This document shows, one piece after another, positions 3,049 through 5,019 of a DNA stretch of 32,909 bases; within the stretch, counting starts at the first letter, position 1, and the number at the start of each line of letters is the position of its first letter. A program made the translations under genes and the position numbers. Below the pieces are notes generated by a model that saw only the letters and a program-made list of their open reading frames with translations, made no database searches and was not told where the DNA came from. Origin of the DNA: Puniceicoccaceae bacterium (GTDB taxonomy: Bacteria > Verrucomicrobiota > Verrucomicrobiia > Opitutales > Coraliomargaritaceae); NCBI GenBank assembly GCA_017854655.1, contig JAFMHF010000019.1:1-32909 (forward strand). Reading direction: 5' to 3'.

Positions 3049-4098
<1,050 letters not shown>

Positions 4099-4177: not shown

Positions 4178-4207
4178 AAAAAAGCCGCGATACACACACT
4201 CGCGGCT
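4178..4207 (-). terminator. Rho-independent terminator, minus orientation
   Basis: On the minus strand AGCCGCGA pairs with TCGCGGCT around a 9-nt loop and is followed by six T. On the plus strand, where it could serve dinB, there is an A-tract before the stem but only GGTATG after it. It is therefore stronger for minus-strand transcripts. It lies just beyond the 3' end of candidate small RNA A and could back it up, or it could act in both directions. Confidence 0.7.
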
Positions 4208-4220
4208 GGTATGTAGACAC

Positions 4221-4327
4221 AAAAATGGCGCACCTCCTACCCCTAAGAAGTGCGCCAACCATTGTCTACTTTATACCTACTGCAAGCAGCAGGATTTTTT
4301 ATTACCCCAAACTCCCTTGCGGGAGAA
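4221..4327 (-). ncRNA. Candidate small RNA A (tandem pair)
   Basis: Read on the minus strand, the unit begins with a hairpin (CTCCC, loop GCAA, GGGAG). It continues with TTTGGGGTAATAA, then a second small hairpin (CCTGCTG/CAGTAGG, one mismatch). It ends with a perfect 8-bp stem TGGCGCAC/GTGCGCCA whose 16-nt loop contains TTAGGGGTA, followed by five T. The last part has the form of an intrinsic terminator. Unit B upstream on the same strand repeats the layout. The 5' end is a guess because no convincing promoter is visible. It could instead be a repeated DNA element. The family is not one I recognise. Confidence 0.45.
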
Positions 4328-4423
4328 AATTGTTGATGCCGCAAATAAAGATACAAAAATCAGTACTCTGCAAGCTTTATTTTTTAAATATGAAGAAAAG
4401 TTTTAAAGAACGCACTCGGCCAG

Positions 4424-4512
4424 AAAAATGGCGCGAGGAATACCCCTAAACCCCGCGCCACACTGCTTTTCTGCTTTGTCTTATTACCCCAAACTCCCAT
4501 ACATAGGAGAAA
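4424..4512 (-). ncRNA. Candidate small RNA B (tandem pair)
   Basis: This is the second copy of the unit. On the minus strand a weaker 5' hairpin (CTCC...GGAG) is followed by the same 18-nt block as unit A, GGGAGTTTGGGGTAATAA. It ends in a 7-bp stem TGGCGCG/CGCGCCA whose loop again holds TTAGGGGTA, followed by five T. The terminator stem differs from unit A by changes on both arms that keep pairing, while the loop is conserved. The middle section has diverged. On the plus strand the 5' hairpin supplies AGGAG eight bases before an ATG at 4518, so a short plus-strand ORF is an alternative explanation. Confidence 0.45.
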
Positions 4513-4656
4513 GATTTATGTACACAGTTATAACAGGTCTCGTGCCAAGTTCCGTTGATGTATCCATTTTTTTCATAAAAATAAAAGTCTACTCAAATTA
4601 CTCATTTTTGATGGCTCTGTGCTGTAGATTGAGAACACTCTATCTGGCTGCTAACC

Positions 4657-5019
4657 ATGAATTTTTCTAAAAAAACCGAAGATATTATCGCTGACTTTCG
4701 CGGACTGCCGCGCACGACAACGTATTCTTCGAAGCGCCCACCGGTGCAACTGGATAACCTACTGGTCATCCTCAAAGAAAAATATCAACTGGAACAACCC
4801 AGTGCCGAGCGTACCATGGTCGAGCATTGGGGCGAAATTTTTGGCAACCTAGCTAGCCGCTGCAACCCGGTGCGCATCAAAAATGGCCGCACCCTGATCG
4901 TTTCGGTGACGAACCAAACCCTACGCTCCGAACTACAGTTTCGTAAACACACGGTCCTAAAGAAAATTCAATCGTTGCCTAACTGTAAAGGTGTCAGCGA
5001 AATTGTGATCCGTGGCTAG
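4657..5019 (+). CDS. DUF721 family protein (DciA-like helicase loader candidate)
   Basis: This 120-residue protein carries the DUF721 core at about residues 50-118: HWGEIFGNLASRCNPVRIKNG, then TLIVSVTNQTLRSEL and a C-terminal VSEIVIRG strand. DciA is the DUF721 protein that loads or recruits the replicative helicase DnaB in bacteria lacking DnaC/DnaI. Assignment to DciA rather than to the broader family is inference. It lies 71 bp upstream of thyA on the same strand and may share its transcript, which would suit a DNA-synthesis role. Confidence 0.8.
   Translation: MNFSKKTEDIIADFRGLPRTTTYSSKRPPVQLDNLLVILKEKYQLEQPSAERTMVEHWGEIFGNLASRCNPVRIKNGRTLIVSVTNQTLRSELQFRKHTVLKKIQSLPNCKGVSEIVIRG

Follow-up and report, generated by a model that had tools for sequence, protein, structure and literature searches.

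The gap between dinB and dciA and its two units

The intergenic gap between dinB (3049-4098, plus strand) and dciA (4657-5019, plus strand) holds two similar RNA units on the minus strand, which raises the question of whether these are small RNAs and, if so, how they might act. Both lie in what we call the window, the whole 32,909-nt stretch of Puniceicoccaceae DNA analyzed here. An earlier note on this DNA had proposed a duplicated minus-strand small-RNA pair, and comparative evidence (covariance models, covariation and negative Rfam searches) supports that proposal: judged by sequence comparison, the window carries two paralogous, terminator-ended putative small RNAs of ~90-110 nt, both on the minus strand.

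The core of unit A extends from its 5' hairpin to its U-tract (4221-4328, ~108 nt), and that of its sister, unit B, occupies 4424-4512 (~89 nt). Read 5' to 3', the two share a common order of parts: a short hairpin, UUUGGGGUAAU, an A-rich linker, a strong hairpin with the loop UUAGGGGUA, and UUUUU. A repeat search recovered the 18-nt block that had been described as identical in both units, GGGAGUUUGGGGUAAUAA, at 4299-4316 in A and 4481-4498 in B (minus strand, 100% identity), with no third occurrence in the host's own genome.

The CTCC/GGAG hairpins noted at the 5' ends are likewise present. That of unit A (CUCCC-GCAA-GGGAG, 4312-4325) folds, shows two-sided changes at all 5 of its pairs across the order and has a GNRA-type loop in most relatives; that of unit B (CUCC-UAUGUAUG-GGAG, 4494-4509) also folds. 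In unit A it is followed by the conserved single-stranded motif at 4301-4311, a candidate seed (S1) whose GGGGUAA occurs in 50 of 56 order-wide copies. The middle hairpin CCUGCUGCUUGCAGUAGG (4276-4293) is variable, being present in 19 of 24 alignment rows and missing from many genera. The unpaired segment AAAGUAGACAAUGG (4259-4272) is nearly invariant in the alignment of the host's family and less strict order-wide, where forms such as AAAGUAGAAAAU occur.

Both units end in GC hairpins followed by TTTTT, as had been claimed. The terminator of unit A, whose loop is a second candidate seed (S2), spans 4221-4257 with its U-tract and shows two-sided changes at 10 of 11 pairs; its hairpin (4226-4257) has a predicted stability of -23.8 kcal/mol (z -7.5 against shuffles). 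The corresponding hairpin of unit B (4429-4460; -22.1 kcal/mol, z -5.7 against shuffles) carries the loop UUUAGGGGUA and reaches 4424-4460 with its U-tract, as placed by folding and alignment. The terminal stems differ between the units yet pair in each, while the loop TTAGGGGTA is common to both, in agreement with the original reading. An additional hairpin just downstream of unit A (GCCGCGA/UCGCGGC-UUUUUU, 4178-4208, minus strand; -14.3 kcal/mol, z -2.6) may be a backup terminator ahead of the convergent dinB. This hairpin with its U6 is apparently retained, as a similar AGCCGCGA follows A in near relatives.

Distribution across the Opitutales

The pattern GGGAGTTTGGGGTAAT, with at most one mismatch, was found in 29 of the 44 genomes of the host's family, while its reversed control matched in none of the 44, a contrast well above what chance would give. 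On reading, every matched copy in the family but one proved to belong to a conserved element of full length. The exception, a match in genome G004 (locus L003), has none of the element's other parts around it and appears to be a chance hit; in that genome the covariance model detects other copies, which are full. Two extra copies in G004 are divergent (locus L136, 4001-4080 and 11747-11828), with completely different terminal stems, and one of them has a sigma-54-like TGGCATAATATATGC upstream.

The covariance-model search that had been suggested was carried out over related genomes with two models, R1, built from 24 A copies, and R2, built from 56 order-wide copies. In searches of the window, unit A scored 92.7 bits (E 1.8e-17) and unit B 79.8 bits (E 8.4e-15) against R2; R1 gave 128.5 bits for A and, built from A copies only, also detected B (52.2 bits). 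As each unit matches both models, at least two homologous RNAs are found in one genome. R1 matched in 39 of the 44 family genomes and in 130 of 273 Opitutales genomes, and R2 in 171 of the 273, representing 69 of 88 genera. In a phylum-wide sample of 388 genomes, 62 had a match, and all 62 belong to the Opitutales. Many of the Opitutales genomes listed without a match fall in a few lineages, several of which have genomes of ~1 Mb. Copy number ranges from 1 to 6 per genome, the maximum being reached in one family.

Named public records with the RNA family belong to Puniceicoccaceae, Coraliomargarita and other Opitutales; the other named records that we checked were mostly chance pattern matches (R2 E 0.006-0.16). 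Both small-RNA copies are also present at 1190-1510 of PBCW01000002.1, labelled Rhodospirillaceae bacterium SP3966. This contig is collinear with the Puniceicoccaceae genome G037 at ~90% protein identity, and is probably a misplaced Puniceicoccaceae contig in a Rhodospirillaceae MAG. We also considered a viral origin and rejected it: annotated phages had no match, and IMG/VR contigs with the 15-mer gave no model match better than E 0.25.

Selection on structure and on exposed motifs

When the A copies are aligned with MAFFT, the structure described above pairs in 99.8% of cells and shows 4 pairs changed on both sides; none of 500 shuffles attained its covariation score of 0.153. The 56 order-wide copies show two-sided changes in 17 of 19 pairs (163 cells) and a covariation score of 0.477, as compared with 0.161 for shuffles (0/500 reach the score); sliding the partners by one base reduces pairing from 98.6% to ~50%. 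The MAFFT test is the cleaner of the two, because the order-wide alignment was fitted to the covariance model.

Conservation falls on the exposed segments. Mean pairwise identity is 0.62-0.65 in the terminal stems, 0.987 in the terminator loop and 0.91 in the GGGGUAAC motif, and the single-stranded (UUU)GGGGUAA(C) located 3' of the 5' hairpin is nearly invariant, as is the terminator loop. The conservation of that loop within the family is not an artefact of how copies were selected, since the first pattern search selected for GGGGUAA and not for the loop.

Promoter-like elements of two types

Each unit has a clear terminator of its own and a putative promoter marked by conserved elements. Upstream of unit B lies a sigma-54-type -24/-12 element, TGGCACGAGACCTGT (4533-4547, minus strand), which fits the consensus TGG[CA]A-N7-TG[ACT]. 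This consensus, whose spacing is that of sigma-54 sites (-24 GG, -12 TG(C/T)), precedes 24 of the 27 B copies as compared with 1 of 46 A copies, counting as B one copy first classed as A; in the other 3 B copies the same position holds a near match to it. The TGGCACG reported at 4541-4547 was confirmed, and the comparison of copies strengthens the case for a sigma-54-like site. The description of its -12 half as poor needs refinement: yTGT/yTGC is kept across genera at the right distance. In most genera this half reads CTGT or TTGT, with T for the canonical C, and in some genomes (e.g., G024 and G040) it contains GC (TTGC, GTGC or CTGC). RpoN (PF04552) is encoded in all 19 relatives.

Unit A is preceded by CTTGCA (4369-4374, minus strand), probably a housekeeping -35-type promoter element. 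Of the 46 family A copies, 37 have CTTG[CA] at 41-50 nt ahead of their 5' hairpin, and CTTGC or TTGAC recurs at much the same distance in several other families; no full sigma-70 consensus came out of a simple scan. Unit B apparently depends on another sigma factor than A for its transcription. Some 25 of 44 family genomes keep the tandem of A and B, both units having the same orientation and B lying ~200 nt (up to ~740) upstream. Several genomes (loci L022, L027 and L028) have a conserved inverted repeat, ACTAA...TTAGT (ACTAACTATAAGTAAAATTAGT), between B and A, ~70-95 nt upstream of A; a regulator may bind there, or the repeat may belong to the end of B.

Base pairing or protein binding

The reading that we consider the most probable, with moderate confidence, is that the units are two trans-acting, base-pairing sibling small RNAs of a new Opitutales-wide family, A with a housekeeping-type and B with a sigma-54 promoter. 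According to this model, A would be transcribed from a housekeeping-type promoter with CTTGCA as its -35, and B by sigma-54 RNA polymerase together with some enhancer-binding activator; given two promoter types, the same regulatory RNA would be available under either of two conditions. Stable transcripts would result from the 5' hairpin together with the strong terminator. Both GGGGUA segments would then serve as seeds that pair with C-rich, UACCCC-type sites in target mRNAs or other RNAs, altering the translation or stability of the target without Hfq, ProQ or CsrA.

The last point reflects the protein content of the hosts. No match over the cut-off was obtained in 19 relatives for Hfq (PF17209), in a search whose controls were detected; ProQ (PF04352) was found in 0 of the 19, and CsrA (PF02599) in 0 of 13 genomes of the host's family and in 2 of the 19 relatives overall. 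The loops of the units are mostly GNRA-type and UUAGGGGUA, and do not present several GGA motifs in hairpin loops. We therefore regard the usual chaperone and sponge models as disfavoured, and rejected titration of CsrA, Hfq or ProQ, these proteins not being found in the relatives tested.

Searches for targets were made in G037 (nearly complete, 1.73 Mb) and in the partial genome G043. Complements of 7-9-mer seeds were not clearly commoner in 5' regions of G037 than those of shuffled seeds, and among 272 ortholog pairs between G037 and the partial G043, shared seed-complement sites were not above control. In the 5' regions of G037, UACCCC had the lowest count of its 30 permutations; we do not interpret this rarity, because the partial G043 does not show it. 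The best single candidate, a 10-nt match at -28 relative to a fucose-permease-like gene in G037, was rejected since none of the matches listed lies near the orthologue in G017, G015, G009 or G024. No enriched, conserved or supported target site emerged; pairing through both GGGGUA segments is the favoured reading, and one that we infer from the anatomy of the units.

These nulls leave real weight to the main rival, which we hold to be clearly less probable than base pairing: that the units are protein-binding RNAs, in which U(U/A)GGGGUA, displayed once single-stranded and once in a loop, docks an RNA-binding protein that would be titrated by the RNA or would guide it, as with CsrB/RsmZ or 6S RNA, the protein being another one. 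The core is indeed presented twice in nearly every copy, the identity of the loop exceeds what base-pairing seeds usually need, complementary sites are neither enriched nor conserved, and one family carries up to six copies. Against this, the same profile searches returned no CsrA in the family and no Hfq or ProQ in the relatives, the motif differs from the GGA-in-loop motif of CsrA, and no candidate protein was found. A bolder version, an order-specific RNA with its own RNA-binding protein for U(U/A)GGGGUA, forming a global post-transcriptional system without Hfq, ProQ or CsrA and made in constitutive and sigma-54-induced versions, seems to us rather doubtful.

Neighboring genes and the remaining alternatives

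In the host's family the units neighbor dciA, thyA, dinB and rpsA, in other families they neighbor unrelated genes, and across the order no neighbor gene is fixed. Since there is no constant neighbor, and since the units in the window run convergently into dinB, the RNAs would be trans-acting, if they act at all. A cis-acting leader or attenuator of a downstream gene is, in our estimate, very unlikely. In its favor, rpsA lies 150-490 nt downstream of unit A, in the same orientation, in five loci from several genera (L133, L134, L137, L138 and L143). This synteny is limited to parts of one family, and we rejected a leader of rpsA or of another gene: the element is convergent to dinB in the window, the neighbors in other families are unrelated, the distance to the next gene varies, and unit B has its own terminator and is followed by unit A, not by a gene. 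In the window, a DUF2288-dinB pair stands between unit A and rpsA.

Just as improbable is that the units are bidirectional terminators or a duplicated extragenic repeat with no regulatory RNA. Their intergenic position, terminator-like ends and 1-6 copies per genome would suit such elements, which nevertheless have no need of a conserved loop, a 5' hairpin or a conserved single-stranded motif, nor of an upstream promoter element that differs with the type of copy; moreover, the copies are few and are retained in most genera. A gene for a small protein, on whichever strand, can be practically dismissed. Although short ORFs on the plus strand overlap the units (4167-, 4428-4670), the distance between the two conserved motifs keeps no frame (random modulo 3, 21/18/17 copies by frame), and single-base indels separate invariant blocks in the alignment of A copies. 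Homologues keep covarying stems and fixed loops, not the plus-strand reading frame that the earlier note had named as refuting its proposal.

The base-pairing sibling model concerns an RNA family that is present in most Opitutales genera and strongly constrained, in host genomes without detected Hfq or ProQ (19 relatives) or CsrA (13 family genomes). Opitutales occur widely in the sea and in soils. The family is of interest because it is so broadly distributed in an order apparently devoid of classical RNA chaperones, and because its promoter control is putatively split; it makes the use of small RNAs in such bacteria a directly testable question, and from the sigma-54 sister one would expect a specific inducing condition.

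Comparison with known systems

The impression that the units belong to no known RNA family was borne out by Rfam 15, which gave only sub-threshold matches over the element in the window under default and relaxed settings, nothing reaching the gathering threshold, and no match over the element in 18 order-level loci. The best weak match, Trp_leader (RF00513; 26.6 bits, below its gathering score of 41 bits), shares the architecture of a hairpin plus terminator; here no trp gene lies downstream of the units. At one Opitutales locus (L111, 2828-2874, plus strand) the Acido-Lenti-1 RNA (RF01687) matches just above threshold. The open-access papers that we searched included none on small RNAs of Opitutales or Coraliomargarita. 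We consider the RNA family new because no Rfam family matches it and no description appears in those papers.

CsrB and RsmZ resemble the units in repeating a short G-rich motif in a loop, but their motif is ANGGA, as compared with GGGGUA in A and B, which carry only two per RNA. GlmY/GlmZ, Qrr and CrcZ are sigma-54-controlled small RNAs, with examples of homologous small RNAs under split promoter control. This division of control, including sigma-54, is akin to that proposed for A and B, although sequence, structure and genomic place differ and the -12 half of unit B is unusual.

Of the sibling small RNAs compared here, the enterobacterial ones work with Hfq, which was not found in the 19 relatives examined. 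It is an established pattern that siblings share their ends and diverge in the middle or in their promoters (PMC4211561): OmrA/OmrB, PrrF1/PrrF2 and AbcR1/AbcR2 are homologous pairs, several of them in tandem (PMC4211561), and NmsRA and NmsRB have been termed siblings (PMC5362039). All four pairs are unrelated in sequence to units A and B, whose candidate seeds, being G-rich, cannot pair with G-rich Shine-Dalgarno sequences as the anti-SD motifs of the NmsR RNAs do. OmrA and OmrB combine shared ends with divergent middles, as do A and B, and it is by such anatomy that the two units would join the loose class of sibling small RNAs.
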